This document shows, piece by piece, positions 1,783 to 27,310 of a DNA stretch of 33,732 nt. Position numbers and translations under genes: made by a program. The DNA comes from Deltaproteobacteria bacterium (GTDB taxonomy: Bacteria > Desulfobacterota > Syntrophia > Syntrophales > UBA2185). Every line of letters begins with the position of its first letter. The stretch's first letter is position 1. Location: positions 1 to 33,732 of the forward strand of contig JAPLJS010000110.1 of assembly GCA_026388545.1 (NCBI GenBank). Direction: 5' to 3'. The notes beneath the pieces were generated by a model, which saw only the letters and a program-made list of their open reading frames with translations, ran no database searches and was not told the DNA's origin.

Positions 1783-3917
1783 CTATCCCTCTGACTGCCA
1801 GTTCCCCGCACTATCCTTACCGATCACAGAAACCGTATGGGAACCTTCTGAAAGGGATGAAAGAGTAATCGGCGAGCCAGCCGGAATCTCCGATGCTGAG
1901 TAGACACCACCGTCAAGCTTATACCTATATGCAACGACATCTATCCCCCCTATGTTCAGGCTCGCTGACGTGGAATTCGTACGGGATGCAGGCATGCCTG
2001 ATATCGTGGCCGTAGACGGAGTAATATCCACCGTCCACGTTACCGTTGTCGCCGATCCCTCTGACTGCCAGTTCCCCGCACTATCCTTACCGATCACAGA
2101 AACCGTATGGGACCCTTCTGAAAGGGATGAAAGAGTAATCGGCGAGCCAGCCGGAATCTCCGATGCTGAGTAGACACCACCGTCAAGCTTATACCTATAT
2201 GCAACGACATCTATCCCCCCTATGTTCAGGCTCGCTGATGTGGAATTCGTACGGGATGCAGGCACGCCCGAGATCGTGGCCGTAGACGGGGTAATATCCA
2301 CCGTCCATGTTACCATGGTAGCCGATCCCTCAGCCTGCCAGTTCCCCGCAGTGTCCTTCCCGATCACATAAACTGTATGGGAACCTTCTGAAAGGGACGA
2401 AAGACTGATCGGCGTGCCAGCCGGAATCTCCAATGCCGAGTAGACACCGCCGTCAAGCTTATGCTTGTAGGCGACCACATCTGTCCCGTCCACCGTCAGG
2501 CTCGCAGAGGTGGAATTCGTGCGGGATGCAGGCATGCCCGATATCGAGGCCGTAGAGGGGGAAAGGTCCACTGTCCACGTTACCATGGTAGCCGATCCCT
2601 CAGCCTGCCAGTTACCCGTAGTGTCCTTCCCGATGATAGAGACCGTATGGGAACCTTCTGAAAGGGACGAGAGACTGATCGGCGTACCAATCGGAATCTC
2701 CGATGCTGAGTAGACACCGCCGTCAAGCTTATACTTGTAAGCGACCACATCCGTCCCACTTACCGTCAGGCTCACAGAGGTGGAATTCGTCAGAGATGCA
2801 GGCGCGCCCGATATCGAGGCCGTTGAGGGGGTAAGGTCCACCGTCCACGTTACCATGGTAGCCGATATCTCTGACTGCCAGTTACCTGCACTATCTTTCC
2901 CGATGACGGAAACTGTATGGGAACCCTCCGAAAGGGACGAAAGACTGATCGGCGTACCAGCCGGAATCTCCAAAGTCGAGTAAACACCGCCGTCAAGCTT
3001 ATACTTGTAGGCAATCACATCCGTCCCGCTTACTGTCAGGCTCGCTGATGTTGAATTCGTACGGGATGCAGGCACGCCCGAGATCGTGGCCGTAGAGGGG
3101 GTAAGGTCCACCGTCCACGTTACCATGGTAGCCGATCCCTCAGCCTGCCAGTTACCCGTAGTGTCCTTCCCGATGACAGAAACTATGTGGGAACCTTCTG
3201 AAAGGGACGAGAGACTGATCGGCGTACCAATCGGAATCTCCGATGGCGAGTAGACACCGCCGTCAAGCATATACCTATATGCAACGACATCTATCCCCCC
3301 TACGTTCAGGCTCGCTGATGTGGAATTCGTACGGGATGTAGGCATGCCCGAGATCGTGGCCGTAGACGGAGTACTATCCACCGTCCACGTTACCATGGTA
3401 GCCGATCCCTCAGCCTGCCAGTTACCTGCACTATCCTTCCCGATCACATAAACTGTATGGGAACCTTCTGAAAGGGACGAAAGACTGATCGGCGTGCCAG
3501 CCGGAATCTCCAATGGCGAATAAATACCACTATCAAGCTTATACTTATAGGCAACTACATCTGTCCCGCTTACCGTCAGGCTCACAGAGGTGGTATTGGT
3601 CAGCGCTGCAGGCGTGCCCGATATCGTGGCTGTCGACGGGGTAAGGTCCACCGTCCACGTTGCTTCTGTGGCCGATCCCTCAGCCTGCCAGTTACCCGCA
3701 GTGTCCTTCCCGATCACATAAACCGTATGGGAACCTTCCGAAAGGGATGAGAGGCTGATCGGCGTGCCAGCCGGAATCTCCGATGGCGAGTAAACACCGC
3801 CGTCAAGCTTATACTTGTAAGCGACTACATCTGCCCCGCCTACCGTCAGGCTCGCAGAGGTGGAATTCGTCCGGGATGCAGGCGTGCCTGAGATCGTGGT
3901 TATGGGCGGACTTTGAT
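1218..3917 (-). repeat. Ten tandem 270-bp repeats inside the large secreted-protein gene
   Basis: The block reading TCCACCGTCCACGT on the plus strand recurs at 270-base steps (near 1218, 1488, 1758, 2028, 2298, 2568, 2838, 3108, 3378, 3648). Each unit encodes 90 residues, from PSTATISG through DVVAYKYKLDGGVYS and SLSSLSEGSHTV to GNWQAEGSATMVTWTVD. No unit has an insertion or deletion, so the period is exact. The copies around 1801-2000 and 2071-2270 differ at only a few bases, which points to recent duplication or gene conversion. Long open frames on the opposite strand here are by-products of the repeat. Confidence 0.95.
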
Positions 3918-6570
3918 CCAAGGTGATCGACGCAGAATAGACACTCGACCAGTTACCTGCGGCATCTTTAAACATAACATATACCGTTCTTATTCCGTCA
4001 CCTGGCATGAGGTTCCATGCTATTGAGGAACTGTATGGCACAGCAGTGACAGTGTTCCAGTTCGCATCTTCATTGGAGATTTTCATTTCAGTGACGCCAC
4101 CGGCATCGTTCGCGGATAGCGATAAGGCAACCGAAATACTGCCTGTAATGGTTGCCCCGGAATTTATCGTGATTAATCCATTTGAAGGAGAGGTTATATC
4201 ACTGAACATTGCTGTAACTGTTACATCCATATTAGACATGATCAGATTACATGTCCCTGTACCTGAACAGCCGCCTCCGGACCATCCGACAAATGTGCAA
4301 CCCGTATCGGGCGAGGCGGTAAGGGCTATCGATGTACCGATACCGTATTTCGTATTGCAGACGCTGCCGCAGTTGATTCCCGCCAGCGAATCTGTGATGT
4401 TGCCTGTCCCATTGCCGGTCTTTGATACTGCAAGGGTGTTTCCTGTGAGGCTTGAATCGAATCTGCTTACAAAAATCTCATCGCCTCCCTGTCCCTCAGA
4501 TTGGGCTCCGCCCGCGGTTCCCGGAAAGTTGATGGAAAACGTAAACCCCGCAACATAGATCTTATCATTCGAGTCAATGGCAATTGCATAAGCGGATTCA
4601 CTTCCACTTCCACCGAGAAATGTAGATTTGGCAATGGACGTGAGGTCCGAATTAAGTCTTGCAACAAAGGCGTCCCAAGATCCTCCTTTATGCGGCTGGA
4701 CGCTATCTGTTGCAGTCCCTGTAAGGGTAGTTGAAATGGTCTGACCTGCAATGTAGACATTTCCACTCGAGTCAATAGCCATCGCATTGGCGTAATCATC
4801 GCCGTCCCCACCCAGGTACGTTGATCGGACTAATGAGGTAAGTTCTGAATTGAGTTTCGTGACAAAGGCGTCACTAAGACCTGCATCTGTTCCATGAGAC
4901 GGCTGAGCGCCGCTTGACGTACCGGGAAAGTCGGTGGAAGAGGTGTACCCTGCAACGTAGACGAATCCGCCTGCGTCAACGACCGTCGAATAGGCAGATT
5001 CATATCCGTCCCCACCCAGGTACGTTGATTTGACAATTGATGTAAGGTCTGAATTCAGCTTTGTAACGAATGCATCGAAGGCTCCTCCATTAAATTGTTG
5101 AGCGCCGCCTGAGGTGCCCGGAAAGTTGGTGGAATCGGTCTGGCCCGCAGCATAGACGTAAGTGTTGCCATCACTTGAATATAAGGCTAACGAATAAACC
5201 TCGTCGTATCCCTCCCTTCCCAGATACGTGCTCTTGACAGTGTCGAGATTCGAATCAAGCTTCGTAACAAAGGCATCGAAGCCAGTACCTTTAGATGCCT
5301 GAGCGCCGCCAGTTGTCCCTGGAAAGACAGCAGAATCGGTTGTCCCCGCGACGTAGATGTTTCCGCCTGCTTCAATGGCTATCGAATTGGCCCAATCGGA
5401 TCCAGTCCCGCCCAGGTACATGGATTGGATGGTTGTAAGTTCCGAATTAAGTTTTGCGACAAAGGCGTCACTATTGCCACCATAACCGCCGGCAGTTCCG
5501 GGAAAATCTGTGGAAGACGTCTGACCTGCAACGTAGACATTCCCATTATTGTCAACGGCTATCGCATATGCCCGATCATCTCCATTCCCGCCCAGGTACG
5601 TGGATTGGATAATTGATGTAAGCCCTGAATTGAGTTTCGTGACAAAGGCATCGCGTTTCCCTCCATCTCCTCCATGCGATGACTGGTACCCATTGATGGC
5701 ATTCGGAAAGTCAATGGAGAATGATTCGCCTGTAACGTACACGTTCCCGCTGGAGTCAGTGGCAATCGAATAGGCATAATCAGAATTACTTCCACCTATG
5801 TATGTCGATTGGAGAAGCGGGTCTATGACGAGGGCCTCCGTTTTGTCATAGGAACCGATGGAGAAGCCGTAGACGTGCCCACCACGTGTCGATTTCTTGT
5901 CGGCGTCAAGAATGGCATATCTGACAGGTATGTCAACACGTTTACCCTTGATTTCCTGATAGGCAAAGGGGATCGTAAATGCGATAGATCCAAGATCAGT
6001 TGCCGCTTCGAGCTCGCCGGCATCGTTGATCTTTATGCCTTTTCCACCGCTTACGCTTACTCTGATCTGATCCGGTCTTGAACCCGGTTTTACATAAAAG
6101 AGCTTCTCCACATTGTTCCCGTAGGCTTTGAGCTTTACTTCTATCCCTTTGTATACTTCTCCCAGGTTAACGAGCTGATAGGTGGCGACATTACCTCTCC
6201 ATGTAGAAGGATCATTCCCTCTAAAACAACTCACCGCTGTGGGAGATTTCTCCTCTGCCGTTACGTGCTTGATAGCACTGCCTTCGAATTCTTCTTTGAG
6301 AACCCATCCCCCGACCACCTTTCCTTTCCGATCTGTCTTCGGAAGAGAGTAAATAATGTCTCCATCTCTCGTAACAAAGACGGTACCACCAAATGTTTTC
6401 GCATAAAATGCGACAGCTTCATCTATCTGTCCCATATTGGCGATAAAAGGTATATGGAGCCCTTTCATCTCGCGTACGAGATCCGGTTTGGCATGCAGCG
6501 GATAAGGAAGGAACAGAATGAAGCTGAAAGCGGCGATTAATCGCCAATATTGTACGGGTTTGATTTTCAT
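1783..6570 (-). CDS. Large secreted protein: DUF7948-like, SBBP propeller, InlB-like and Ig-like repeats
   Basis: The start chosen is the ATG at 6570, preceded by GAGGAG six bases upstream; a GTG at 6597 lacks such a site. Residues 1-27 form a signal peptide (MKIKPVQYWRLIAAFSFILF, cleavage near PLHA). The DUF7948-like domain (HIPFIANMGQ) follows to about residue 250. Next come seven SBBP repeats (STYLGGxGxDxAY...GNVYVAGxTxSxDFPGT), enough for one seven-bladed beta-propeller. A divergent InlB/bacterial-repeat domain (GWSGGGCSGTGTC) comes next, then an Ig-like domain and eight of ten 90-residue Ig-like repeats. The product stops at the TAG at 1783-1785, giving 1595 residues instead of about 1940. 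It is probably an exported or surface adhesin-like protein; no enzyme motif is visible. Without its dockerin-like end, anchoring or partner binding may be lost. Confidence 0.85.
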   Translation of the reverse strand: MKIKPVQYWRLIAAFSFILFLPYPLHAKPDLVREMKGLHIPFIANMGQIDEAVAFYAKTFGGTVFVTRDGDIIYSLPKTDRKGKVVGGWVLKEEFEGSAIKHVTAEEKSPTAVSCFRGNDPSTWRGNVATYQLVNLGEVYKGIEVKLKAYGNNVEKLFYVKPGSRPDQIRVSVSGGKGIKINDAGELEAATDLGSIAFTIPFAYQEIKGKRVDIPVRYAILDADKKSTRGGHVYGFSIGSYDKTEALVIDPLLQSTYIGGSNSDYAYSIATDSSGNVYVTGESFSIDFPNAINGYQSSHGGDGGKRDAFVTKLNSGLTSIIQSTYLGGNGDDRAYAIAVDNNGNVYVAGQTSSTDFPGTAGGYGGNSDAFVAKLNSELTTIQSMYLGGTGSDWANSIAIEAGGNIYVAGTTDSAVFPGTTGGAQASKGTGFDAFVTKLDSNLDTVKSTYLGREGYDEVYSLALYSSDGNTYVYAAGQTDSTNFPGTSGGAQQFNGGAFDAFVTKLNSDLTSIVKSTYLGGDGYESAYSTVVDAGGFVYVAGYTSSTDFPGTSSGAQPSHGTDAGLSDAFVTKLNSELTSLVRSTYLGGDGDDYANAMAIDSSGNVYIAGQTISTTLTGTATDSVQPHKGGSWDAFVARLNSDLTSIAKSTFLGGSGSESAYAIAIDSNDKIYVAGFTFSINFPGTAGGAQSEGQGGDEIFVSRFDSSLTGNTLAVSKTGNGTGNITDSLAGINCGSVCNTKYGIGTSIALTASPDTGCTFVGWSGGGCSGTGTCNLIMSNMDVTVTAMFSDITSPSNGLITINSGATITGSISVALSLSANDAGGVTEMKISNEDANWNTVTAVPYSSSIAWNLMPGDGIRTVYVMFKDAAGNWSSVYSASITLDQSPPITTISGTPASRTNSTSASLTVGGADVVAYKYKLDGGVYSPSEIPAGTPISLSSLSEGSHTVYVIGKDTAGNWQAEGSATEATWTVDLTPSTATISGTPAALTNTTSVSLTVSGTDVVAYKYKLDSGIYSPLEIPAGTPISLSSLSEGSHTVYVIGKDSAGNWQAEGSATMVTWTVDSTPSTATISGMPTSRTNSTSASLNVGGIDVVAYRYMLDGGVYSPSEIPIGTPISLSSLSEGSHIVSVIGKDTTGNWQAEGSATMVTWTVDLTPSTATISGVPASRTNSTSASLTVSGTDVIAYKYKLDGGVYSTLEIPAGTPISLSSLSEGSHTVSVIGKDSAGNWQSEISATMVTWTVDLTPSTASISGAPASLTNSTSVSLTVSGTDVVAYKYKLDGGVYSASEIPIGTPISLSSLSEGSHTVSIIGKDTTGNWQAEGSATMVTWTVDLSPSTASISGMPASRTNSTSASLTVDGTDVVAYKHKLDGGVYSALEIPAGTPISLSSLSEGSHTVYVIGKDTAGNWQAEGSATMVTWTVDITPSTATISGVPASRTNSTSASLNIGGIDVVAYRYKLDGGVYSASEIPAGSPITLSSLSEGSHTVSVIGKDSAGNWQSEGSATTVTWTVDITPSTATISGMPASRTNSTSASLNIGGIDVVAYRYKLDGGVYSASEIPAGSPITLSSLSEGSHTVSVIGKDSAGNWQSEG

Positions 6571-7574
6571 AGCGCACTCCTCAAGGAAGGACTCCACCTC
6601 TTTTACTCTATTGATCTTGATTTGTCTTCAAAATATTCCGGCAGAAAAAACTTCATGATTGCCGGCTCGTCGACACGCTTCCTGTTTTCAATTCCACTCC
6701 CATTGCCGTATTGATTTTCATCATATCCTCTTCACTCAGAATGAACGGGCGTCTTTATAGCATAAATAATTGATATGTTCGATAATCATATCTTTTATGC
6801 GCTTATGAAAAAAATAAATCCGTATATGATCATTGCGTTAACTGTAATACCACGTATCACAATAACCGTGCCAGACATCCCAATATCAAGATATTAACAA
6901 TATAAGTATACGAATAGTAATGGCATCCCGCCTATCTAAAGTTCTATGATAGATATTGCAGAGTGATCTGCACACCAAAGATGTAAAGAATTCCGACACT
7001 CGTCCGATTCACGGCCTTATTAAGGAAAAGAATATTAATCATGTAATCCCCTGCTATTGTCTGCAATAGATTATGCCTGGATGTTATTGGACGGGATGAC
7101 ATAATTCTTGCGACGAAATGACAGCCGAGATATACCTGCTTTCATCGTAATAATGCCAATATCAGCATTTGTCACATATTTATAAATATGATGCATCCTC
7201 TTTATTATCGTTTTCTGATCTATAAATTTTTAGTCTTGTTTATACATTATTAGAAAAACCTCTACGTGAGAACCATAATGAAAATTCAAATATAAAAACC
7301 CCTAATTGGGGATATATATCAACTATGTCGGGTTTCTTTACAAAGACAAATAATTTGTGTAATACATTGTATTTTCATTATATTGTGCTAAAAATGCTTT
7401 TCGAATATTCGTAATACACAGTAATACTGTCGAGATTTTTTACAACTTTTTACAAAAGGTAAAGGCGAAGGACGGATATTCCAATCTCGAGTTTTCTGAT
7501 CGACCAAGTATTACAATCAATATTTCAATGACTTATGAAATGTGAAGGCTATCTTTTCTAAAATATTCATGCTG
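6571..7574. other. AT-rich intergenic region with inverted repeats and GTAATAC boxes
   Basis: About one kilobase without a credible gene lies between two divergent genes. Seen in it: an imperfect inverted repeat at 6761-6799 (CATAAA, GATATG, loop, CATATC, TTTATG); the dyad AATATC-aa-GATATT at 6882-6895; CCCC-taatt-GGGG near 7300; and the heptamer GTAATAC at 6844, 7359, 7411 and 7421, with its complement GTATTAC at 7508. The two copies at 7411 and 7421 are ten bases apart, one helical turn. The region probably carries control sites for the PEP-CTERM gene and the promoter of the minus-strand gene. Confidence 0.6.
7411..7514 (+). promoter_or_regulatory. Candidate enhancer sites (GTAATAC boxes) for the sigma-54 promoter
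   Basis: GTAATAC occurs at 7411-7417 and 7421-7427, and in inverse orientation at 7508-7514, roughly 60 to 165 bases upstream of the -24/-12 element; further copies lie at 7359 and 6844. The copy at 7421 sits in a dyad, ACAGTA-a-TACTGT. This spacing is normal for upstream activating sites of sigma-54 enhancer-binding proteins. PrsR is the known activator of PEP-CTERM genes in several bacteria; that it binds here is inference. Confidence 0.4.
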
Positions 7575-9147: not shown

Positions 9148-10989
9148 TCACAGGGGGTCCCCTATGCCTTTCTTCTTCTGATACTGCCGATAAAAAAAAG
9201 GAATCAGGGAAACCAATACAACGAGGGCGATTCCGATAATGAACGTGATCGAGATTTTTCCTCGAATCAAATCCAGGAGCGAACTGGAAAAGACGATAAA
9301 GGCGATGCAGGCTGGAAGCATGCAGATAAAGGACGCCACGGCGTAAGGCCAGAAACCGATCTTTGTCAACCCGAAAGCATAATTCAAAAGGTTAAACGGG
9401 AAAAGGGGAATGAGACGGGTAAAGGCCACGACCTTCCATCCGTGCTTTTCCACCCCTTCGTCAAGGCGGCGCCACCGGGGGCTCCGGAGCTTGCCCTCGA
9501 CCCAGTCCCTGGCCACGTAACGCGAGATGAGAAAGGCAATACATGCTCCTACCGTCGCGCTGGTGATGGTGTAGATTACCCCCCAGAAAGGCCCGAAGAG
9601 AATCCCCCCGGCGATGGTAATGGGGAGACCGGGCAGGAGCAAAGCCGGCGCAATCGTATAGATCAGCATATAGATGAGGGGCGCCAGCATCCCGTACCCC
9701 GCAATCAATTGACGGAGGGTTTCCTGATCAAGATAACGGGTGGCGCCTGTCGTTCGGACGGCGACAATGGCAGCTATAAGGACGGCCAGAATCGCCAGAC
9801 GCCCGATCCACCCTTTCTTCTTCCCTTCCGACACCGTATAGGTTCTCTCCCGGGAAGCGGCTGTGTCTATCTTCTTTTTAAAGTAATTCTTGATGCGGAG
9901 CCGGTTAAGGTAGGTAAAGGGCGCTCCGGAGATTTTGCTTTGCCCCACCAGGGCCGCCTCCGGTTCACAGAGAACATCGAGGGCATGCACCGCCGCCTTG
10001 CCGCTGAGACGTCCGGCGCAGCCGCAGCAGTAGGTAACGATCCGGCGTTCTCCCGCTTCCTTCCATGTGCGTTCCAACCATCGGTCTGCTAGTTCGGGCG
10101 ACAGGACATTCACACCCGCCCCGCTTCCACAGCAAAGGGTTCGTTCCGCTGAATGGTTCATTTCCCGGGAGGCGACGCCCGTCATGCCGACCAGACGGCG
10201 CACTGCAGCATGGGCGTCTTTATGAAACCGTACGCCGCACGGGTCGTGAATCACGATATCATGGCTTTTCAAGGCGCCGGAAACAATATTCCCCGGCAGC
10301 GCTTCATAGACCGTGCGGATATTCAGGCCGTCGCCGTATCTGCTGAAGATGTCATGGCAGTTGTGACAGACGACCAGAACCTCCCTTACACCCTGCGACA
10401 GCAGATAATTTCTCATCTCCTCGAACATTGCTCGAAAGAACTGTTTACGACCCAGGTCGTGGGATATTTTCCCGCAACAGTCGAGGACGATGCCGATAGT
10501 CGGATCCTGTTTTTGGAGGGTCTCAAAAAGATCTTGCGTTCTGGCAGGCCGTGTCCCGGGCATTGCGCATCCCGGGAAAAGGACAGTCCGGCATCCTTCG
10601 GGAAGTCCATACCATGTGAACCGTTTCGACATCCCCCGCTTTTCGTAATCGAGGAGCGCGGCGTGCTCGGGAAAGGAACCGGCATCACGATCCACCGCTT
10701 CCCGGCGCATTTCAAGGAACATCCCGGAGAGATTTAAGCCGAGAGGGCAGACGGCATTACAGAGCCGGCACAGGCTGCACTCAAAGGGCATGACCTGTCC
10801 TTCTTTCGTCCCGGGATCATAACTATCCGCTATTTCCTTCGGCGTGCCGTATTTTTCGAGAAAACCGCATTCCTCCCGGCATATGCCGCAGTCCGTGCAT
10901 GTCTCCGATACATGCGCCATAACTTCCCTAAGAGATGGGCGAATGGGCATTTGCTTCATAGCAGACGATGATGAGGTTTGTGTTTCCAA
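9148..10989 (-). CDS. Fusion: dicluster ferredoxin + CCG (HdrD-like) domains + VTT/TVP38 membrane domain
   Basis: The 613-residue product has three parts. Residues 31-41 (CTDCGICREEC) and 71-81 (CSLCRLCNAVC) bind two [4Fe-4S] clusters. Residues about 133-345 hold two cysteine-rich CCG-type domains (C141, CC171-172, C208/C211, then C251, CC286-287, CC321-322 and C324) as in heterodisulfide reductase HdrD and GlpC. From about 395 a transmembrane helix leads into a VTT/TVP38 (SNARE-associated, DedA-like) membrane domain with LLPGLPITIAGGILFGP and TRLIPLFPFNLLNYAFG. The start is TTG at 10989 with AGGGA upstream; the first ATG, eleven codons on, has no such site. It follows the activator ATPase gene by 12 bases, so it is co-transcribed with the double-cubane genes. 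A likely role is membrane-bound electron transfer to that reductase; the VTT part may instead only anchor it. Confidence 0.85.
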   Translation of the reverse strand: METQTSSSSAMKQMPIRPSLREVMAHVSETCTDCGICREECGFLEKYGTPKEIADSYDPGTKEGQVMPFECSLCRLCNAVCPLGLNLSGMFLEMRREAVDRDAGSFPEHAALLDYEKRGMSKRFTWYGLPEGCRTVLFPGCAMPGTRPARTQDLFETLQKQDPTIGIVLDCCGKISHDLGRKQFFRAMFEEMRNYLLSQGVREVLVVCHNCHDIFSRYGDGLNIRTVYEALPGNIVSGALKSHDIVIHDPCGVRFHKDAHAAVRRLVGMTGVASREMNHSAERTLCCGSGAGVNVLSPELADRWLERTWKEAGERRIVTYCCGCAGRLSGKAAVHALDVLCEPEAALVGQSKISGAPFTYLNRLRIKNYFKKKIDTAASRERTYTVSEGKKKGWIGRLAILAVLIAAIVAVRTTGATRYLDQETLRQLIAGYGMLAPLIYMLIYTIAPALLLPGLPITIAGGILFGPFWGVIYTITSATVGACIAFLISRYVARDWVEGKLRSPRWRRLDEGVEKHGWKVVAFTRLIPLFPFNLLNYAFGLTKIGFWPYAVASFICMLPACIAFIVFSSSLLDLIRGKISITFIIGIALVVLVSLIPFFYRQYQKKKGIGDPL

Positions 10990-11001
10990 AATTTTTCCCT
11001 A

Positions 11002-11754
11002 TTACGATTCCTTTGTAGTCTTCATATACGCACAGCCAAGAGCGCCCACAATCTGCGGGTCCCCCGGAACGAAGAGGTCACTGCCGATTTCTTGACTGAG
11101 AATATCATTCACACAGGAGTTCATGGCCACACCGCCAAAGAAGGCGATCCTCCCCCCCACATACACGCGTTTCAACATGGCAGCCGAACGCCGGCAGATC
11201 GTTTCATGGATGCCTCGGGAAATTTCCGACCTGTCATGCCCCTGCGCCAGCATGGAGATGACCTCCGACTCCGCGAATACGGTGCACATACTGTTGATCT
11301 TGACGGCGTTTCGCGTTGACGAACCTGCCGTAATAAATTCTTCCATACCGAAGCCGAGGGCGGTGGCCATGATCTCAAGGAACTTGCCCGTTCCGGCGGC
11401 GCACTTATCGTTCATTTCAAACCGTTCGATGTGCCCCGTCTCGGTGAGGGAAATGGCCTTGGTGTCCTGTCCGCCGATGTCGAGAATCGTCCGGCAGTCC
11501 GGACAGACTTTTCGCGCGCCGATCGCGAAGGCCTTGATTTCACTGATCACACGGCAATCGTAATAATTGCGGAACAGATTCCTCCCGTAGCCTGTGGCGG
11601 TGATGGTATCGTACTGTACGCCATCTATGATCTTTCTGCAGACCTCCAAGGGATTGTACGAATTCATATCCTTCCGGACCAGAATGATCTCCCCGTTTTC
11701 TACCACAACGAGCTTGACCGTTCGCGATCCGATGTCAATGCCTGCACTGATCAT
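11002..11754 (-). CDS. ATP-dependent activator (BadF/BadG/HgdC family) of the double-cubane protein
   Basis: The 250-residue protein has the actin-like ATPase fold of 2-hydroxyglutaryl-CoA dehydratase activators: phosphate-1 loop GIDIGSRT (5-12), DIGGQDTK (92-99), and the two cysteines that bind one [4Fe-4S] cluster between the subunits of a dimer, C118 in NDKCAAGTGKF and C157 in SMCTVFAESE. Known members use ATP hydrolysis to push a single electron of very low potential into their partner. The partner is the double-cubane protein encoded just upstream, as in the yjiM/yjiL pair of E. coli. AGGGA precedes the ATG. A 200-base gap filled with a palindromic repeat element separates it from the partner gene, while only 12 bases separate it from the Fe-S/VTT gene downstream. 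Confidence 0.92.
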   Translation of the reverse strand: MISAGIDIGSRTVKLVVVENGEIILVRKDMNSYNPLEVCRKIIDGVQYDTITATGYGRNLFRNYYDCRVISEIKAFAIGARKVCPDCRTILDIGGQDTKAISLTETGHIERFEMNDKCAAGTGKFLEIMATALGFGMEEFITAGSSTRNAVKINSMCTVFAESEVISMLAQGHDRSEISRGIHETICRRSAAMLKRVYVGGRIAFFGGVAMNSCVNDILSQEIGSDLFVPGDPQIVGALGCAYMKTTKES

Positions 11755-11847
11755 AGTTCCCTATTCGTATAACAACAACAAAACTGTAATAAACCCTCAT
11801 GTCCGCTGGGGCACGAGGAAAACATGAAAATCATCGATTCTATTAAG

Positions 11848-11927
11848 TCTCCCTTCTGTAAAGGGAGATTTAGAGGGATTTTGCAAAGAAAATGAAAAAT
11901 CCCCCCGGCCCCCTTTAAAAAAGGGGG
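11848..11927. repeat. Palindromic repeat element, copy A (within the double-cubane operon)
   Basis: Three nested parts are seen: hairpin TCTCCCTT/AAGGGAGA (11848-11868), a central pair GGGATTTT (11875-11882) and AAAATCCC (11896-11903), and hairpin CCCCCTTT/AAAGGGGG (11909-11927). Copy C at 25957-26041 has the same order of parts. It has no coding capacity and resembles non-autonomous palindromic repeats (REP/MITE-like) common in delta-proteobacteria. Confidence 0.8.
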
Positions 11928-11953
11928 TGATTAAATCCTTTTTGGTATTAACA

Positions 11954-13111
11954 TCAGAGACTGTCAAACAAAGCCTCCACCCGTGTGCGTATCTGTTCCA
12001 CATCGCCTTCTGAATAGTCGGTTTCGATCTTCAGATAAGGCAGGCCGTGTCTGTTCTTTGCATGAACGCGGATTTTGTGGGATTCGACATTATAGGAATG
12101 GCAGGCATGGAGCACGACTTCAATGATTGCATCCGGCTTAAACCGGTCAATCATTGCATCCAATTCCTGCAGGCGGTTCGAGTTGGGGGTCATGCAGGAG
12201 CAGGGAATTTTCAGGTATCGTTTAGCGATGGCGGCGTACGGATCTGCCGTATTTTCTTCTATTTTTCCCATAAACGTCTTCATCCCCGTACAGGAATCCA
12301 GACAGACGATATCGCCGCCGAGTTCCTCGATAATCATGAAGACCTTGTTTGCGTCCCCGCCCACGGGGCATCCGGTAACGAGCACCCGCGGCGAATCCGC
12401 ACCTCCGACGGCAACTCCGGAGGCGACTCTTTTCTCCAGCTTCTTTACGGTCTCTTCCAGCAAGGGAGCAATATCGTTGAACGTCGCCGATTGTGCCAGA
12501 TACGTCAGGTCGTAGAGTTCGCTCCAGCTTATCACTGAGGGCTTATGCCTGGTGAAATCGAAAATCCGATTCATCATTTCGAATTTCCGGTTGGTGTCTT
12601 TAATCTCCGCCTCCACATCCTCATCACGGATCTCTCTGTCAAAGGTGTTTTCCAGAAACGTCTGCAGTTTCCTGATCATGACCGTCCAGTTGGCCTGGGC
12701 CTCCCGTTCATCGGGAAGCTGGGGCAGATCCATGACATACATGGGCTTGATGTGTGAAATGAGTTCGAACATTTTTTTCTTGCCGTCGCACGTGGTCTCC
12801 GCAATGACGGCCTCGGAGAGGGCGTAAAACGGACAGGTATCCGTGATGATAAACCCGTAGCTCGATTTAATGAGCGGACACAGATTGGCGGGCAGCACCG
12901 CTTCCGCCGCGGCGATGGTTTTGTTGGCAAAGGCACACAACACTGCCGGAACGGCATTTATGGCGCGAATAACCTCCAGAGGAGCATACCCGCAGTAGAT
13001 GCCGACCACGTTTTTTCCCTTCTCTCTCTGCGATTGTATATAGTTCAAAACCCTTTTAGCGTGCTGACCGTCAAAACCGTCGTTAACAAGCGGCTCAATA
13101 TTTCTGTGCAT
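11954..13111 (-). CDS. Double-cubane-cluster anaerobic reductase (2-hydroxyacyl-CoA dehydratase D-like, YjiM family)
   Basis: The 385-residue product belongs to the HgdB/FldC-like superfamily. It carries the YjiM/DCCP signature motifs: IYCGYAP (C40), NLCPLIKSSYGF (C78), DTCPFY (C93), TGCPVGGDANK (C248), CLDSCTGMK (C270, C274), PCSCMTPN (C304, C306) and HACHSYN (C337). In the characterised Carboxydothermus protein such cysteines hold an [8Fe-9S] double cubane that reduces small molecules such as acetylene and azide after ATP-driven electron input; the natural substrate is unknown. A single gene replaces the two dehydratase subunits. I place the start at ATG 13111, eight bases after AAGGAGG; ATG 13117 lies too close to that site and a TTG at 13147 lacks one. 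It leads an operon with its activator and the Fe-S/VTT fusion. Confidence 0.9.
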   Translation of the reverse strand: MHRNIEPLVNDGFDGQHAKRVLNYIQSQREKGKNVVGIYCGYAPLEVIRAINAVPAVLCAFANKTIAAAEAVLPANLCPLIKSSYGFIITDTCPFYALSEAVIAETTCDGKKKMFELISHIKPMYVMDLPQLPDEREAQANWTVMIRKLQTFLENTFDREIRDEDVEAEIKDTNRKFEMMNRIFDFTRHKPSVISWSELYDLTYLAQSATFNDIAPLLEETVKKLEKRVASGVAVGGADSPRVLVTGCPVGGDANKVFMIIEELGGDIVCLDSCTGMKTFMGKIEENTADPYAAIAKRYLKIPCSCMTPNSNRLQELDAMIDRFKPDAIIEVVLHACHSYNVESHKIRVHAKNRHGLPYLKIETDYSEGDVEQIRTRVEALFDSL

Positions 13112-13158
13112 ACTCATGGCCTCCTTATATGAAGTGAATTCAAACAAATATGGCGGCC

Positions 13159-13185
13159 AATATATTATTTAATTGAATAAGTCAA
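13159..13185 (-). promoter_or_regulatory. Possible sigma-70 promoter of the double-cubane operon
   Basis: On the minus strand TTGACT (13185-13180) is followed after 15 bases by TATATT (13164-13159), about 47 bases upstream of the chosen start. The spacing is short, so this is a weak call. Confidence 0.3.
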
Positions 13186-13387
13186 ATAGATAATATGAAT
13201 AGCTACAGGGGAAGTATTCTAAAAACAAATGGCACTGGTGTTGGTTCTCGGCGTTATATACCCATTAGAAATACGGAGATGTCCTGATAGAAAAACCAGG
13301 ATGAGACAATTGAATTCGAACTATATTTTTTGATTATGGAAGGCAAAGTGGCTGAGAAAAACGTTATTATTTAACGGATCAGGCCCC

Positions 13388-13891
13388 TCATTCGTTCTCT
13401 TTGGCCCCACCGCTCTTTTGCTCATAGTCCCTGATAGCTTCGAGTAATGCGCTGGTACCTGAAAGAATGCATTTACCGTCGCGTCCGGGAATTCCCTCAA
13501 GAGCAAGGATAACATCGGCGTCGGTTATCCGTTTCGCTTCTTCTATGGTTTTCCCTCTGGCAAGCACTGTCGTCATGCTGCTGGTCGCAACAGCGCCCGC
13601 ACATCCGGAGGACAGGAATTTAATATCTGCAATCCTGCCCGAATCCACTTTAATCCATAAGTTCATCCAATCACCGCATGAGGGATCGCCAAGGTGCGCA
13701 AACCCGTCAGCATCGGTTATTTCACCGACATTCCTGGGATTCGTACAATGTTCTATTACCAGTTCATTATAAAAAAGCACGGGTCCATGGGGGAGTTCCT
13801 TGCCCAGTTCCGGCTCCGTTTCCTCCGGTACATTTTTTTTATAGAGATCCATCCAGTTATCAGATTTTCTCTTCATTTCCCTTTGTCTCAT
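13388..13891 (-). CDS. IscU/NifU-type Fe-S cluster scaffold protein
   Basis: The 167-residue product has the U-type scaffold fold with all three ligand cysteines: C72 with the assembly aspartate D74 (GDPSCGDWM), C97 (SSGCAGAVATSSM) and C141 (GRDGKCILSGTSAL). It would hold nascent [2Fe-2S] or [4Fe-4S] clusters in the cytoplasm. A polar extension of about 35 residues precedes the usual start of the family. I chose ATG 13891, preceded by AGGTG five bases upstream; a TTG at 13960 has no such site. No cysteine desulfurase is adjacent, so it is not part of a full isc or nif cluster here. It points the same way as the Fe-S-rich double-cubane operon downstream and could serve it (inference). Confidence 0.88.
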   Translation of the reverse strand: MRQREMKRKSDNWMDLYKKNVPEETEPELGKELPHGPVLFYNELVIEHCTNPRNVGEITDADGFAHLGDPSCGDWMNLWIKVDSGRIADIKFLSSGCAGAVATSSMTTVLARGKTIEEAKRITDADVILALEGIPGRDGKCILSGTSALLEAIRDYEQKSGGAKENE

Positions 13892-14050
13892 TGTATCACC
13901 TGAAGGACAACTCCATGTCCATTTATTAAAATCGATAGTATCTTTACAAACTGTTATCAACGGAGGGTAGGCCCCCGATCCGCTTTCGGAAGGCGAATAT
14001 AGAAGAAGTAATGATATCTGTCAACGGAAATATAAAACAGTGATTTCACG

Positions 14051-15099: not shown

Positions 15100-16617
15100 A
15101 TGAATCTTGTCACACTTGCCGATGAAAACCTGAAAAGCTTCGGTGAATATCCATTTTTAATCTTTGAGGACGTAACTTTCACAAACAGGCAAATGATTAA
15201 TGATGCAAATGGGATGGCTAATGGTCTGAAGAAGCTCGGCGTTAACAAGGGCGATAAAGTGGCGGTAATGCTGCCCAACTGCCCGGAGGTCCTTATCAGC
15301 TACCAGGGTATTCTCAGGTGCGGCGCCGTCATCGTTCCCCTTATTCCCCTTATGAACGAAAAGGAATTAACCCATATTCTCGGTAACTGTGAAGCCGTTG
15401 CGATGATCACCACACGTGACATTTTTCAAAAAAACGAACCCATGCTGCGGACGATCAAAACCCTGAAAAACATAATCATCGCGGACGAGAACGCACCGGC
15501 GGGAACCATTCCTTTCCGGTCACTGATCAGGGATGCTTCCGAAGAACCGGATTTCCCAGCCGTCGAAGAGGATGATCTGGCGGTGATCCTCTACACAGCA
15601 GGCACTACATCGACGCCAAAAGGAGTCATGCTGACGCATAAGAATCTCTATTCCAACGCGGTGAACGCTTCACGCGCCCACGGCACCCAGGCAAGCGATA
15701 TCACCCTGATTGCACTACCCCTGTCCCACTCTTTCGGGATCACATCAATGAATAAGGCATACACATATGGCAATCTGCATGTCCTGATGCGGAAATTCCA
15801 GGTTGAAGAGGCCTTTAAACTGATCGAGAAATACAGAGTGACCAACTGTCCCGGTGTCCCTGCCATGTTCATCACCATGCTGAACAGTCCCGATGCGGAT
15901 AGGTACGATCTATCCTCATGGAAGAGCTGCCTCAGTGGTGCAGCACCTTTTCCGGTCGCGAATCTATTAGCATTTCAAAAGAGATTTCACTGTACAGTCT
16001 TTGAGGCCTATGGACTTTCCGAAGCCTCGCCGGCAGTCAGTACGAATTATCATAACCGCCCGACAAAACCCGGCTCTATCGGCCAGCCTATCCCCGAAGT
16101 TGAGGTAAGGATCGTGGATGATCAAGATCAGGATGTCCCCGGGGGAGATGTCGGAGAGTTACTGGTCAAAGGTCCCAATGTTTCGTCGGGCTATTATAAG
16201 CTGCCCGAAGAAACTGCAAAGACGTTCAGAAACGGCTGGTTGCACACCGGCGACATGGCGAGAATGGATGAGGACGGTTATCTGTATATCGTGGAAAGAA
16301 AAAAGGACCTCATCATCCGTGGCGGTTTCAATATTTATCCCCGCGATATTGAGGAAATCCTGTACCAGCATCCGGCCGTCAAGGACGCTGTGGCCATCGG
16401 CGTCCCCGATCCTGTAATGGGAGAAGAAATCAAAGTGTATGCGGTACTGAAAGAGGGCATGACGGCAGAAGCGGAAGAGATTCTCAATTACTGTCAGAAT
16501 CAGCTTGCCAAATACAAATGGCCGAAATTCATTGAATTTGTTGAGAGCCTGCCGAGAAATCCCATGGGAAAGATATTACGCAAGGAACTGCGAAAACTCA
16601 ACACCAGGGACAGTTGA
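15100..16617 (+). CDS. AMP-forming acyl-CoA ligase (fatty-acid/aromatic acid type)
   Basis: The 505-residue protein is an ANL-superfamily adenylating enzyme with every core motif: the phosphate loop YTAGTTSTPKGVMLTH (165-180), FEAYGLSEASP, the hinge region LHTGDMARMDEDG...VERKKDLIIRGG, and the catalytic lysine K491 in NPMGKILRKE. It activates a carboxylic acid with ATP to an acyl-adenylate and transfers it to CoA. Chain-length or aromatic preference cannot be read from the sequence. GGAGG lies just before the ATG, and the gene follows the flavin oxidoreductase by 13 bases, so the two form an operon. It fits the fatty or aromatic acid use of a syntrophic anaerobe. Confidence 0.92.
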   Translation: MNLVTLADENLKSFGEYPFLIFEDVTFTNRQMINDANGMANGLKKLGVNKGDKVAVMLPNCPEVLISYQGILRCGAVIVPLIPLMNEKELTHILGNCEAVAMITTRDIFQKNEPMLRTIKTLKNIIIADENAPAGTIPFRSLIRDASEEPDFPAVEEDDLAVILYTAGTTSTPKGVMLTHKNLYSNAVNASRAHGTQASDITLIALPLSHSFGITSMNKAYTYGNLHVLMRKFQVEEAFKLIEKYRVTNCPGVPAMFITMLNSPDADRYDLSSWKSCLSGAAPFPVANLLAFQKRFHCTVFEAYGLSEASPAVSTNYHNRPTKPGSIGQPIPEVEVRIVDDQDQDVPGGDVGELLVKGPNVSSGYYKLPEETAKTFRNGWLHTGDMARMDEDGYLYIVERKKDLIIRGGFNIYPRDIEEILYQHPAVKDAVAIGVPDPVMGEEIKVYAVLKEGMTAEAEEILNYCQNQLAKYKWPKFIEFVESLPRNPMGKILRKELRKLNTRDS

Positions 16618-22727: not shown

Positions 22728-25700
22728 TTAATCTTTCTGTAAGCTCCGGCCCCGCCAGATCATATAAATGGCGGGATAGATGATCAATTCGAGGATGGTG
22801 GAAGTGATGACGCCGCCTACCATGGGCGCGGCAATCCGTTTCATGACGTCGGCGCCGGTGCCATGGCTGAACATGATGGGGATAAGGCCCGCCAGGATAA
22901 CGCTCACCGTCATGATCTTGGGACGAATTCTTTTTACGGCGCCGTACATGATGGCCTCTTTCAGATCGGCTGCAGTTGCCATTTTTCCTTCTTTTTTCCA
23001 CTTCTCATAGGCGAGGTCAAGATAGAGGAGCATCACCACGCCCGTTTCCGCGTCGAGCCCCGCGAGGGCGATGATGCCGACCCATACGGCAATGCTCATG
23101 TTGTAATTGAGAATATAGAGAAGCCAGAAGGAACCGACGAGGGAAAAGGGAACGGCAAGAAGAACGATTGCCGTTTTTATGACTGATTTCGTATTGAAGT
23201 AAAGCAGGATAAAAATGATAAAGAGCGTAAGGGGAATGACCAGTTTCAGCCTTTCGTGGGTCTTGACCAGGTATTCATATTCGCCGCTCCAGGAAAGTCG
23301 GTAGCCTTCAGGTATCTTCAGAGAGGCCACCTTCTTCCGGGCTTCATCAACATACCCTCCCACATCCCCGCCTGAGTAATCGATAAAGACATAGGCGGTC
23401 AAGAGTCCTTCTTCACTTTTTATGGCGGTCGGACCTTTGACAATCTTGATATCCGCAAGTTCCCCCAAGGGTATCTGGAGAGGACCGGTTGAACCGGACA
23501 TACCGGCAGTCGATGCGGCGGCAACCGGACGGTTCGCCGTCATCACCGGCACAAGCACCCTTCTCAGCTTTTCCACGTCATTGCGTAATTCCCTTGAATA
23601 CCGGACATTGACAGGATAGCGCTCCCGCCCCTCAACAGTGGTGGTCAGATTCATCCCCCCGATGGCGACCTGGATCACTTCCCCAACGTCGTCCACGGTC
23701 AGCCCATACCGTGCCACTTCATTTTTCTTAATAACAATATCCAGAAAGTAGCCGGTTGCGACCCTCTCCGCGTAAACACTGCGGGTTCCCGGAATGTCCT
23801 TGAGGTGATGTTCCAAGGCAAGGCCTATCTTTTCGATTTCTTCGAGGTTCGGGCCCAAAATCTTGATTCCCACGGGGGTCCTGATCCCCGTGGCAAGCAT
23901 GTCAATGCGGGCCTTGATCGGCATGGTGAAGGAATTCGCAACACCGGGAATTGAAAGCGCATCATTCATCTCATCCTTAAGTTTTTCCACAGTCATCCCT
24001 TCACGCCACTCGGATTCAGGCTTCATATTAATCACCGTCTCAAACATCTCCAGGGGCGCCGGATCTGTAGCGGTCTCGGCCCGGCCAGCCTTTCCGAACA
24101 CCTGGGCAACTTCCGGGATCTTCTTTAGAATTTTATCCTGTATCTGCAACAAGCTGGAGACCTCGGAAATGGATGCCCCGGGCATGGTCACCGGCATATA
24201 AAAGAGGGACCCTTCGTAAAGGGGGGGCATAAATTCCGAACCCAGTTTCATAAATGGGTAGATAGTCAGTATCAGAATGACGGCGGCAGTAATAATAACC
24301 GTCTTTTTGAATCTCAAGGCAAGCCTGGCGATGGGTTCATAGAGCTTGTGCAGGATGATGCTGATGGGATTTCTTTCTTCCGGCCGAATTTTACCCCGAA
24401 TAAAGAGCGTCATCAATACCGGCGTCAGGGTAATGGCAAGGAATGATGAGAAGAGCATGGCAAACGTCTTCGTATAGGCCAGCGGTTTGAACAGCCTCCC
24501 CGCCTGCGCCTGCAGCGTGAACACGGGAAGGAACGCCACCGTGATCACCAGGAGGGAGAAGAATAGAGAAGGCCCAACTTCCTTGGCCGCGTCAATGATG
24601 ACGTCCGTCCTGTTTCCCGGTTTGCCCTCCGCTTCCCATTCTTCCAGCTTCTTGTGGGAGTTTTCCACCATGATGATGGAAGCATCGACCATGGCCCCGA
24701 TGGCAATGGCAATACCGCTCAAACTCATGATATTTGACGTGACCCCAAGATAGTACATGCAGATAAACGACATAATGATCGCCACGGGCAGGGTGAGGAT
24801 CACAACAAGGGCGCTGGGCAGGTGAAACAGGAAAATGAAACAGACAACGCTGACCGCAACGGCCAGCTTTATGATCTCGTCCTTCAGCGTGTCGATTGAG
24901 CGCTTTATCAGGTCTGACCGATCATAGGTCGTGACAATCTTCACCCCTGTGGGGAGGCTCGGTGCGATGTCTTTCTCTATTTTTTCCTTAACCCGCTCAA
25001 TGACATTAAGAACATTCTCGCCAAAACGGACAACGACAATCCCCCCGGCAACCTCTCCCCTGCCGTCCAGTTCCGCCAGACCCCTTCTGATTTCCGGCCC
25101 GAACTGAATACGGGCCACATCCTTCAAGAGGATCGGTGTCCCCGCATTGTTCGTGCCCAGGGAAACATCTTCCAGATCCTTGAGGTTCTTGATATATCCC
25201 CTGCCCCTCACCATGTATTCCACGCCGGACATCTCCAGAACCCTGCCCTCCACGTCCCGGTTGCTCTTGCGGATTACCTCCATCACTTTCGTAATCGGGA
25301 TATTGTAGGCAAGAAGGCGGTTCGGATCGATGGTGACCTGGTACTGCTTTACAAAGCCGCCGATGCTCGCGACCTGCGAAACTCCGGGGACGCTCTCCAG
25401 CCCGAGTTTGATCGAATAGTCCTGGATTGAGCGGAGTTCGGAAAGATCATGCCCCCCTGTCTCATCAACGACGGCATAGGAAAACCCCCATCCCAAGCTC
25501 GTCGCATCGGGACCGAGGACGGGATTCACATCGGCGGGGATTTTGTTTTTAACGGCCTGGAGATACTCCAGCACCCGGCTTCTCGCCCAGTAGATATCCG
25601 TCCCCTCTTTGAAAATGACATAGATGAAGGAGCTACCAAGATAGGAAAACCCTCTGACCGCTTGTACCTGGGGAGCGGCAAGGAGGGTGGAGGAAATGGG

Positions 25701-25901
25701 ATAGGTGATCTGGTCTTCCACCAGGTCAGGGCTTCGGCCTGTCCATTCCGTGTAGATGATGACCTGGGTGTCGCTCAAGTCCGGGATGGCGTCAAGTGGT
25801 GCATTCTTCAACGCCCAGTAACCCCAGGCAAGGGAGATGAACATCATCAGAAAGATGATGAACTTATTACGGGCACTGTATGCAATGATTTTGGCGATCA
25901 T
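22728..25901 (-). CDS. cusA: Copper/silver efflux RND pump, inner-membrane transporter
   Basis: The 1057-residue protein is a heavy-metal RND pump. It has twelve predicted helices in the usual two halves and two large periplasmic loops. Seen features of the Cu(I)/Ag(I) subgroup are the TM4 proton-relay segment IGAMVDASIIMVENSHKKLE (D406), M573 and M668 (in RIDMLATGIRTPVG), which align with the methionines of the E. coli CusA metal site, with M619/M626 near the third. It exchanges protons for metal ions taken from the periplasm or cytoplasm. It is the last gene of the operon with the FixH-like protein, cusC and cusB. A 173-base gap occupied by a palindromic element separates it from cusB, and the Shine-Dalgarno sequence is weak. 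Confidence 0.95.
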   Translation of the reverse strand: MIAKIIAYSARNKFIIFLMMFISLAWGYWALKNAPLDAIPDLSDTQVIIYTEWTGRSPDLVEDQITYPISSTLLAAPQVQAVRGFSYLGSSFIYVIFKEGTDIYWARSRVLEYLQAVKNKIPADVNPVLGPDATSLGWGFSYAVVDETGGHDLSELRSIQDYSIKLGLESVPGVSQVASIGGFVKQYQVTIDPNRLLAYNIPITKVMEVIRKSNRDVEGRVLEMSGVEYMVRGRGYIKNLKDLEDVSLGTNNAGTPILLKDVARIQFGPEIRRGLAELDGRGEVAGGIVVVRFGENVLNVIERVKEKIEKDIAPSLPTGVKIVTTYDRSDLIKRSIDTLKDEIIKLAVAVSVVCFIFLFHLPSALVVILTLPVAIIMSFICMYYLGVTSNIMSLSGIAIAIGAMVDASIIMVENSHKKLEEWEAEGKPGNRTDVIIDAAKEVGPSLFFSLLVITVAFLPVFTLQAQAGRLFKPLAYTKTFAMLFSSFLAITLTPVLMTLFIRGKIRPEERNPISIILHKLYEPIARLALRFKKTVIITAAVILILTIYPFMKLGSEFMPPLYEGSLFYMPVTMPGASISEVSSLLQIQDKILKKIPEVAQVFGKAGRAETATDPAPLEMFETVINMKPESEWREGMTVEKLKDEMNDALSIPGVANSFTMPIKARIDMLATGIRTPVGIKILGPNLEEIEKIGLALEHHLKDIPGTRSVYAERVATGYFLDIVIKKNEVARYGLTVDDVGEVIQVAIGGMNLTTTVEGRERYPVNVRYSRELRNDVEKLRRVLVPVMTANRPVAAASTAGMSGSTGPLQIPLGELADIKIVKGPTAIKSEEGLLTAYVFIDYSGGDVGGYVDEARKKVASLKIPEGYRLSWSGEYEYLVKTHERLKLVIPLTLFIIFILLYFNTKSVIKTAIVLLAVPFSLVGSFWLLYILNYNMSIAVWVGIIALAGLDAETGVVMLLYLDLAYEKWKKEGKMATAADLKEAIMYGAVKRIRPKIMTVSVILAGLIPIMFSHGTGADVMKRIAAPMVGGVITSTILELIIYPAIYMIWRGRSLQKD

Positions 25902-25956
25902 AAATTTACCGGAAAATAACTATCATTCCTACGAGAATTGACTTATCTCTTGCTAA

Positions 25957-26041
25957 CCCCCCTTTATTTTGAAAGGGGGGCAGGGGGGATTTTGGCGAAC
26001 CCATTGAAAATCCCCCTAAATCCCCCTTTACAAAAGGGGGA
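25957..26041. repeat. Palindromic repeat element, copy C (between cusB and cusA)
   Basis: Hairpin CCCCCCTTT/AAAGGGGGG (25957-25980), a central pair GGGGGGATTTT (25983-25993) and AAAATCCCCC (26007-26016), and hairpin TCCCCCTTT-aca-AAAGGGGGA (26021-26041). The order of parts is identical to copy A at 11848-11927. It fills most of the cusB-cusA gap and does not interrupt either gene. Confidence 0.85.
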
Positions 26042-26074
26042 CTTGGAAGAAGGTATTTTTTTCATTCCTTTATT

Positions 26075-27310
26075 TCATTTCAGCCTGCGCAGGGGTTTGA
26101 CACCTTTAAGCTGTGCTTCGGAATCAATCAGGAAATTGGCCGATGATACAACCTTTTCGCCGGTTTTGAGGCCACGCAATACTTCCACGGCGCCGTCCGC
26201 CCGGAGGCCGAGTTGAACCTCACGGGGTTCGAAGGCGCCATTCCCCCGGTCCACATAGACCACCTGCCCCGTCCCTGTATCAATCACGGCTGATTCCGGG
26301 ACGACAAGCCTTTTGCCCAGGTTGATCCTTATTTCCACATTCGTAAACATTTGGGGTTTCAACCGGCCGCCTGGATTGGGCAGTGTCAGTCGAACCTTCG
26401 TTGTCCGGGTATCCGCTGAAATGGTGGGATAGATATAATCAATCTGTGACGATAGTTCTCTTCCCGGAAAATAACTGAGGGTAATTCGGGCCGGTTGGCC
26501 GACCCGGACGAAGGACAACTCGTATTCATAAATATCGGCGATGATCCAGAGGGTGGAGAGATCGGCTATGTCAAAGAGCTTTTCTCCCGGCATGACTTTC
26601 ATTCCCTGGACGGCCATCTTCTGCGTAACAAACCCGCTGACAGGGCTATACAGAGTCAATGTCCGGACAGCTTTGCCCGTCTGTTCGATATGTTTGATCT
26701 GTGCCTCGGATATGTCCCAGAGCCGCAGCCGTTGCCTTGCCGCATCCAGTGCGGCGTTGGCATCCTTTGCTATCATAAGGCCGAGCGTGTCATCCTTTTT
26801 CTTGTCGCCCGGCTGTGTTGCCCATTTTAAGACCCCCAGGAATTCCTGTTGTGTTGCCAGAAGCTCCGGGCTATAAATCTCCGCCAGGGGCTCCCCCTTC
26901 TTGACGTAGCGGCCCGTGTAATCTACATAGAGCTTCTCAATCCAGCCCTCAATCTTCGTATTGACCGTAGCCTGCTTCCGCTCATCAGCCTCGATCCGTC
27001 CCACCGTGCGAATGACCTTCTGCAGGGGCTTCAGGGAAACCTTGACCGTCTTGACTCCGATGAGTTGCTGCTGTTCCGGAGTAATTTCAACTTGGGGAGC
27101 CTCTTCTGTCGCCTCTTCCTGTGGAGCCGGTTGCTTGATCTGGGGTGTGACGGTCTTGGGTTTCTCCGCTCCTGCCGCCGGCGGCTTCGCCGTATGCCCT
27201 GCATGTCCCTGGGCCCAGGCAGGTGATGAAACAATATTCCCCGAAAGGAGGAATAAGACTCCCATGACACCGATGAACGTAAAAATAATGCTTTGGTTCC
27301 GCCTGATCAT
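26075..27310 (-). CDS. cusB: Copper/silver efflux periplasmic adaptor
   Basis: The 411-residue protein has an N-terminal membrane/signal segment (about 9-33), a His-containing stretch (HAGHTAKPP), then the membrane-fusion-protein order: lipoyl half-motif (IEGWIEKLYVDYTGRYVKKG), a helical hairpin (about 150-225), the second lipoyl half (LYSPVSGFVTQKM), and a beta-barrel with LSTLWIIADIYEYELSFVRVGQ, typical of CusB. It links CusA to the outer-membrane channel and hands over metal. GGAGG lies before the start, and the ATG overlaps the cusC stop codon by four bases (ATGA), so the two are translationally coupled. Confidence 0.93.
   Translation of the reverse strand: MIRRNQSIIFTFIGVMGVLFLLSGNIVSSPAWAQGHAGHTAKPPAAGAEKPKTVTPQIKQPAPQEEATEEAPQVEITPEQQQLIGVKTVKVSLKPLQKVIRTVGRIEADERKQATVNTKIEGWIEKLYVDYTGRYVKKGEPLAEIYSPELLATQQEFLGVLKWATQPGDKKKDDTLGLMIAKDANAALDAARQRLRLWDISEAQIKHIEQTGKAVRTLTLYSPVSGFVTQKMAVQGMKVMPGEKLFDIADLSTLWIIADIYEYELSFVRVGQPARITLSYFPGRELSSQIDYIYPTISADTRTTKVRLTLPNPGGRLKPQMFTNVEIRINLGKRLVVPESAVIDTGTGQVVYVDRGNGAFEPREVQLGLRADGAVEVLRGLKTGEKVVSSANFLIDSEAQLKGVKPLRRLK

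Follow-up and report, generated by a model that had tools for sequence, protein, structure and literature searches.

A clade-specific triplet of a double-cubane-cluster protein, its activase and an HdrD/EtfD-like VTT membrane protein in Syntrophales, with a possible tie to selenium and sulfur redox genes

Results

Layout of the locus

The window analysed here is a stretch of 33,732 nt (positions 1 to 33,732 of contig JAPLJS010000110.1, assembly GCA_026388545.1) from a bacterium of the order Syntrophales in the Desulfobacterota. It carries on its minus strand, in the order of transcription, a NifU-like gene, the gene for a double-cubane-cluster protein (DCC), the gene for its activator ATPase (ACT) and a third gene, encoding an iron-sulfur (FeS)/CCG module fused to a VTT membrane domain (FeS/CCG-VTT; Table 1). 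The triplet DCC-ACT-FeS/CCG-VTT is neither unique to this genome nor general but clade-specific, and its two modules recur in a larger, shuffled gene neighbourhood that is linked to the handling of selenium and perhaps of sulfur.

Table 1. Features of the triplet locus
Feature	Coordinates	Strand	Evidence
NifU/IscU-type scaffold gene	13388..13960	-	PF01592 and TIGR03419 (below cut-off) matches
Leader of the DCC gene, conserved and promoter-like (TTGACT, AAGGAGG)	13112..13240	-	Near-identity in G005
DCC, double-cubane-cluster protein, 385 aa	11954..13111	-	NF040772, PF06050, PDB 6eno/7yyl
DCC-ACT spacer, structured dispersed repeat	11755..11953	-	Minimum free energy (MFE) z, genome matches
ACT, activator ATPase (acyl-CoA dehydratase activase / DCCP reductase type), 250 aa	11002..11754	-	TIGR00241, PF01869
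Third gene, FeS/CCG-VTT (HdrD/EtfD-like module plus VTT), 613 aa	9148..10989	-	Pfam Fer4_17, CCG, VTT

The first-pass annotation of this DNA had placed the three genes correctly, and its coordinates and family assignments agree with ours. A Shine-Dalgarno-like sequence precedes each of them: the ATG of DCC follows AAGGAGG at a distance of 8 bases, and the third gene starts with TTG, 6 bases downstream of AGGGA. That annotation had also described the three genes as one tight operon with a 12-base gap before the third gene. This gap was confirmed between ACT and the third gene; the pair itself, however, is split by 199 bases between DCC and ACT. Because a dispersed repeat fills the latter gap, only for the last two genes is there a sound basis to speak of a "tightly linked operon".

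The double-cubane-cluster protein and its activase

DCC scored 460.9 bits against NF040772 ("double-cubane-cluster-containing anaerobic reductase", cut-off 350), which makes it a member of this family, and matched PDB entries 6eno/7yyl with an E value of 5e-73. ACT scored 205.5 bits against TIGR00241 (cut-off 125.4), matched PDB 4eht, 7yyl_E and 1hux, and contains the cysteine motifs of the bridging cluster, CAAGTG (C118) and CTVFAES (C157). Its position 199 bp downstream of DCC provides the activase partner that is typical of double-cubane-cluster proteins (DCCPs). In this family, the DCC-ACT pair constitutes an ATP-driven low-potential reductase, in which ATP hydrolysis by ACT drives electrons into the [8Fe-9S] cluster. 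The conserved ligands and the adjacent partner suggest that DCC and ACT form such a reductase pair here as well. Six cysteines of DCC (C40, C78, C108, C274, C304 and C337, with a small gap ambiguity at C304) align with the [8Fe-9S] ligands Cys36/73/100/263/293/327 of BzdN (PMC11971306), and none of the six varies among 20 relatives. A paper of 2025 still described the biological role of DCCPs as unknown (PMC11971306).

Against PDB 6ENO the window DCC reached 249 bits, compared with 462 bits for a canonical DCCP relative from the same order. Judged by its sequence, the window DCC is thus a member of a divergent NF040772 subfamily with a shorter N terminus than the canonical DCCP; in some genomes both types are encoded close together. 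The locus resembles the known DCCP and reductase system (6ENO, 7YYL; NF040772) in the match to the family model, the six ligands and the adjacent activase, but differs from it in the divergence of DCC, in the 199-bp repeat within the gap and in the additional FeS/VTT gene.

The third protein combines an HdrD/EtfD-like module with a VTT domain

Pfam assigned three domains to the third protein: Fer4_17 (residues 31-86), CCG (246-328) and VTT (452-569), the last with 99.1 bits against PF09335 (gathering score 33.9), placing it in the VTT/DedA superfamily. Besides the CCG motif called by Pfam (C251/C286-C287/C321-x2-C324), we found a second full CCG motif that was not called (C141/C171-C172/C208-x2-C211) as well as two four-cysteine [4Fe-4S] motifs, i.e., the two-plus-two architecture of the HdrD/HdrCB type within one chain. 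Eighteen cysteines are invariant across 55 homologues, including six without VTT in the aligned region. Some genomes encode the FeS/CCG part and a VTT protein separately, by two genes of one cluster.

The AlphaFold2 model (mean pLDDT 86.5) comprises the FeS/CCG module (residues 1-385) and the VTT membrane domain (about 391-607). Its best fold matches were EtfD (9ojn, Z 19.4 over 327 residues), LutA (Z 18.6) and HdrB (Z about 17), after which the list drops to Z 7.5 and below. Since matches to the soluble module take up this list, the absence of VTT-type structures from it is uninformative on that domain. Because two CCG and two [4Fe-4S] motifs coincide with the EtfD/LutA/HdrB fold match, we interpret the protein as an HdrD/EtfD-like module on a VTT anchor. 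The fusion of a ferredoxin/CCG module to VTT, as annotated at first, thus stands, refined by the kind of module and its second CCG motif.

With HdrD/HdrBC, LutA and EtfD (5ODC, 9A6L, 9OJN) the protein shares two CCG and two [4Fe-4S] motifs and a superposition at Z 17-19, but the sequence identity is only 15-20%, and the window protein is fused to VTT instead of being paired with HdrE or carrying the membrane part that EtfD has of its own. The likeness to EtfD (ETF:quinone oxidoreductase) concerns the fold of the soluble module alone. TIGR03288 (heterodisulfide reductase subunit B) was not among the NCBIfam matches of the window protein and reached 20.7-20.8 bits, against a cut-off of 345, in two homologues. 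Residues 33-379 matched NF045663 ("diclust_near_Sec") with an E value of 8e-55, yet with 186.2 bits against a cut-off of 530 and over profile positions 310-670 of 759, i.e., its C-terminal half only. The window protein lacks the FAD/NAD oxidoreductase half (pyridine nucleotide-disulfide oxidoreductase, going by the model name) and has VTT added.

The triplet recurs, but most third genes lie apart from DCC and ACT

We surveyed 296 genomes of the phylum and 14 control genomes, 80 named FeS/CCG loci and 61 DCC loci (25 in the order plus 36 phylum-wide); genes within 6.5 kb were considered neighbours. NifU, DCC, ACT and FeS/VTT occur in the same order in the genome G005 (locus L096; Syntrophaceae UBA10514), which represents another genus of the family, with 82% identity for DCC and ACT. 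The order of the triplet, which the first-pass annotation had proposed to check in other genomes, is hence not confined to this one. G002, from a third genus, has a YdjY gene behind its third gene and carries DCC and ACT on another contig. The NifU-DCC order is kept in G005 (about 85% identity); elsewhere NifU near DCC is rare (1 of 61 DCC loci, at a distance of 4.6 kb). The NifU-like gene is a possible fourth member, and in this clade its product might supply DCC with its cluster.

DCC and ACT were found within this distance of seven of the 80 FeS/CCG loci (L038, L050, L071, L086, L089, L096 and L117), for which an estimate from gene density gives a chance expectation of about 0.3 loci. In L117, DCC, ACT and FeS/CCG are contiguous, the gap between ACT and FeS/CCG is again 12 bases, and DCC belongs to a different subfamily; in L086, the order is DCC-ACT-rhodanese-rhodanese-FeS/VTT. 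On a tree of 78 rows, from which L089 was left out, the linked rows require 5 changes, at least 4 of them forced by supported branches, so the linkage has formed or broken repeatedly. Only one of the sister loci L086 and L087 has DCC/ACT nearby.

The remaining 73 of the 80 third-gene loci have no DCC/ACT in the neighbourhood, and none of the 36 phylum-wide DCC loci has an FeS/CCG gene within 6.5 kb. Within 10 kb, DCC and FeS/CCG occur together in only two of the 296 genomes: that of the window and G268, which contains the same cluster as L089. These counts give no support to the idea that the third gene partners the DCC pair generally or exclusively; its wide occurrence apart from double-cubane genes is the first half of a two-part condition, the other half being a lack of co-transcription, under which the first-pass annotation would have given up its proposal. 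At the level of whole genomes, DCC was present in 18 of the 26 genomes with an FeS/CCG protein vs 88 of the 270 without (p 3e-4 for the phylum and 1e-3 for the order, uncorrected for ancestry), which leaves eight genomes with the third gene and no DCC above cut-off.

Both families are associated with selenium genes

YedF is encoded in 102 of the 106 genomes with DCC vs 102 of the 190 without (odds ratio 22, p 1e-16) and in all 26 genomes with an FeS/CCG protein (p 4e-5), again uncorrected for ancestry. In 19 of the 296 genomes, DCC and YedF are no more than 6 kb apart. At 22 of the 61 DCC loci, YedF, YedE, SelD, the selenium/sulfur carrier (PF11823) or the TIGR01977 lyase is a neighbour, where about one was expected. 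Of the control genomes, E. coli and M. jannaschii matched for both DCC and SelD and the others for neither; none of the 14 scored for YedF, on which this control is therefore silent.

A paralogue of the third gene from the same genome (36% identical; L034, C117:1-13361) lies in a selenium island with yedF, the TIGR01977 lyase, arsS, a TsoB-like rhodanese, a MauE/DoxX-like protein and selD with one in-frame TGA. Among third-gene neighbours in general, rhodanese-like genes are the commonest (39 of 80 loci), and YdjY, MauE/DoxX and ArsS-type radical SAM genes occur as well. Nearly the whole neighbourhood is found on a single contig within 18 kb in the cluster L206 (G268)/L089: DCC2-ACT ... rhodanese ... 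FeS/VTT-YdjY-ArsS ... GT2 ... DCC-lyase-YedF. L050 and L038 are single clusters with many of these pieces. A further cluster, L208 (G269), contains rhodanese, FeS/CCG, MsrA, an FAD oxidoreductase, VTT, YedF and SelD. A search for TGA read-through within 5 kb of the 80 loci gave two TGA-overlapping matches only. Neither TGA corresponded to a cysteine, and each fell where a SelD or YdjY match ends; a selenocysteine in the third gene or in adjacent genes was accordingly rejected.

DCC/ACT homologues recur in previously described selenium gene sets (YedE, YedF, PF11823, SelD, TIGR01977 lyase; PMC5322559, PMC10418091). According to Table 1 of PMC5322559 (2015), the STRING partners of YedF in Slackia include an activase and a subunit of 2-hydroxyglutaryl-CoA dehydratase, and a subunit of this kind ranks first among the partners of a LysR-like regulator; in PMC10418091 the dicubane protein is "provisionally linked to selenium metabolism". 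Because both papers carry it already, the selenium hint is not new. New here are the quantitative association with selenium genes and the HdrD-VTT partner family.

Discussion

The linkage of the three genes is real. As its explanation we favour, tentatively, a clade-specific join of two modules from a selenium/sulfur redox neighbourhood of deltaproteobacterial-type anaerobes. Since both families occur in a selenium context, membership in a shared pathway offers an alternative to a direct donor-acceptor pair. ACT would use ATP hydrolysis to load electrons onto the predicted [8Fe-9S] cluster of DCC, while the two CCG sites of the third protein might interact with a disulfide, a persulfide or a selenosulfide, or else transfer electrons; its two putative [4Fe-4S] clusters would wire up these sites, and VTT would keep the protein at the membrane. 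Both modules would then handle reduced selenium or sulfur species; bound selenium or sulfur could, for example, be released or re-reduced to selenide or sulfide for SelD or iron-sulfur cluster assembly. On this account, we infer, they sit together in the present lineage because of a common selenium/sulfur role.

Several observations weigh against this explanation. The window itself contains none of the genes of the selenium sets along its 33.7 kb; yedF and selD of its genome lie on another contig. By set, selenium neighbours were found at 13 of the 25 DCC loci in the order and at only 9 of the 36 phylum-wide, and at only 6 of the 80 third-gene loci. YedF is common in the phylum (204/296), as is SelD (270/296), whose presence or absence is for that reason uninformative, and the association p values take no account of phylogeny. 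The only close copy of the triplet, in G005, has frame breaks in ACT and in FeS/VTT, and its third gene lacks about 78 residues; G005 is a metagenome-assembled genome, so sequence error and decay are indistinguishable.

The next most probable explanation, though in our view rather unlikely, is a chance or regulatory adjacency, in which the third gene works together with rhodanese and YdjY-type proteins, as it usually does, and has merely landed behind ACT. The frequency of rhodanese-like neighbours fits this well, as do the close relative G002, with its downstream YdjY gene and its DCC/ACT on another contig, and the sisters L086 and L087. The seven linked loci, however, far exceed the estimated chance expectation, and DCC and FeS/CCG also co-occur by genome, both in the phylum and in the order. 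Somewhat less probable still is the role put forward in the first-pass annotation, that FeS/CCG-VTT is the membrane electron donor or anchor of ACT-DCC and feeds the [4Fe-4S] cluster of ACT. Contiguity in two genera, the short gap behind ACT, the arrangements in L117, with its different DCC subfamily, and in L086, with its intervening rhodaneses, the 4-5 or more changes of linkage on the tree and the EtfD/HdrD-like electron-transfer architecture are all compatible with such a role; the recurring linkage upholds that part of the proposal. A dedicated partnership is disfavoured by the many third genes that lie apart from DCC/ACT, by DCC/ACT without the third gene and by the eight third-gene genomes without DCC above cut-off, and the protein is a candidate donor, whose potential would have to be assumed to be low enough to feed ACT. 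The electron path thus keeps the conditional standing it had at first.

By far the least probable is that DCC and ACT form a catabolic enzyme for CoA esters, similar to a 2-hydroxyacyl-CoA dehydratase or a benzoyl-CoA reductase, and that the third protein serves it as an EtfD-like carrier linked to quinone. BzdN and HadC are relatives of the DCC family, no solved structure is closer to the third protein than EtfD, and positions 15100-16617 hold a gene of the AMP-binding (acyl-CoA ligase-like) kind, albeit on the opposite strand. Yet DCC exceeds the cut-off of NF040772 and scores far below those of the BzdN, HadC and BcrC models, all six double-cubane ligands are present, and a gene for a second, non-identical subunit is missing.

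The selenium/sulfur neighbourhood, which we continue to favour, leads to a more specific and distinctly more doubtful proposal: that the physiological role of DCC might be selenium (or selenium/sulfur) assimilation, as an ATP-driven reductase. In some lineages, a thiol/selenol redox protein of the HdrD-like, VTT-anchored kind, whose gene follows that of the activase, would connect this reductase to the membrane. The association with YedF and the clustering with YedE, YedF, SelD and selenium/sulfur carrier genes turn a loose earlier hint into a specific, testable hypothesis, which reaches as far as E. coli with its DCC homologue and SelD. The HdrD-VTT family, in turn, comprises uncharacterised redox proteins of the membrane that have a separate link to these selenium genes.

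Intergenic elements and other features of the window

The spacer between DCC and ACT is hairpin-rich and structured (MFE z -2.84) and has 25 matches in its own genome, the best of them between unrelated genes; further copies are located at 25958-26065 of the window and on other contigs. It is also present at the same DCC-ACT site in the second genus, with 87.7% identity to G005 vs 61% at the third codon positions of DCC. As a dispersed repeat beside unrelated genes, it was ruled out as a specific riboswitch, and no known RNA family was detected at gathering score in the window. The repeat may attenuate transcription into ACT. The leader of the DCC gene is near-identical in G005 over about 100 bases and is not repeated in the genome; a structured RNA was rejected here (z -0.24).

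Elsewhere in the window, a long open frame with many near-identical repeats (1783-6597, 1604 aa) adjoins a frame with immunoglobulin-like/PKD matches (748-1761). An apparent resistance-nodulation-division efflux operon of the CusA/CusB/outer-membrane type (ACR_tran, HlyD_D23, OEP) occupies 22728-28587, and a Fic/DOC protein with a DUF4172 domain at its N terminus is encoded at 30414-31532.

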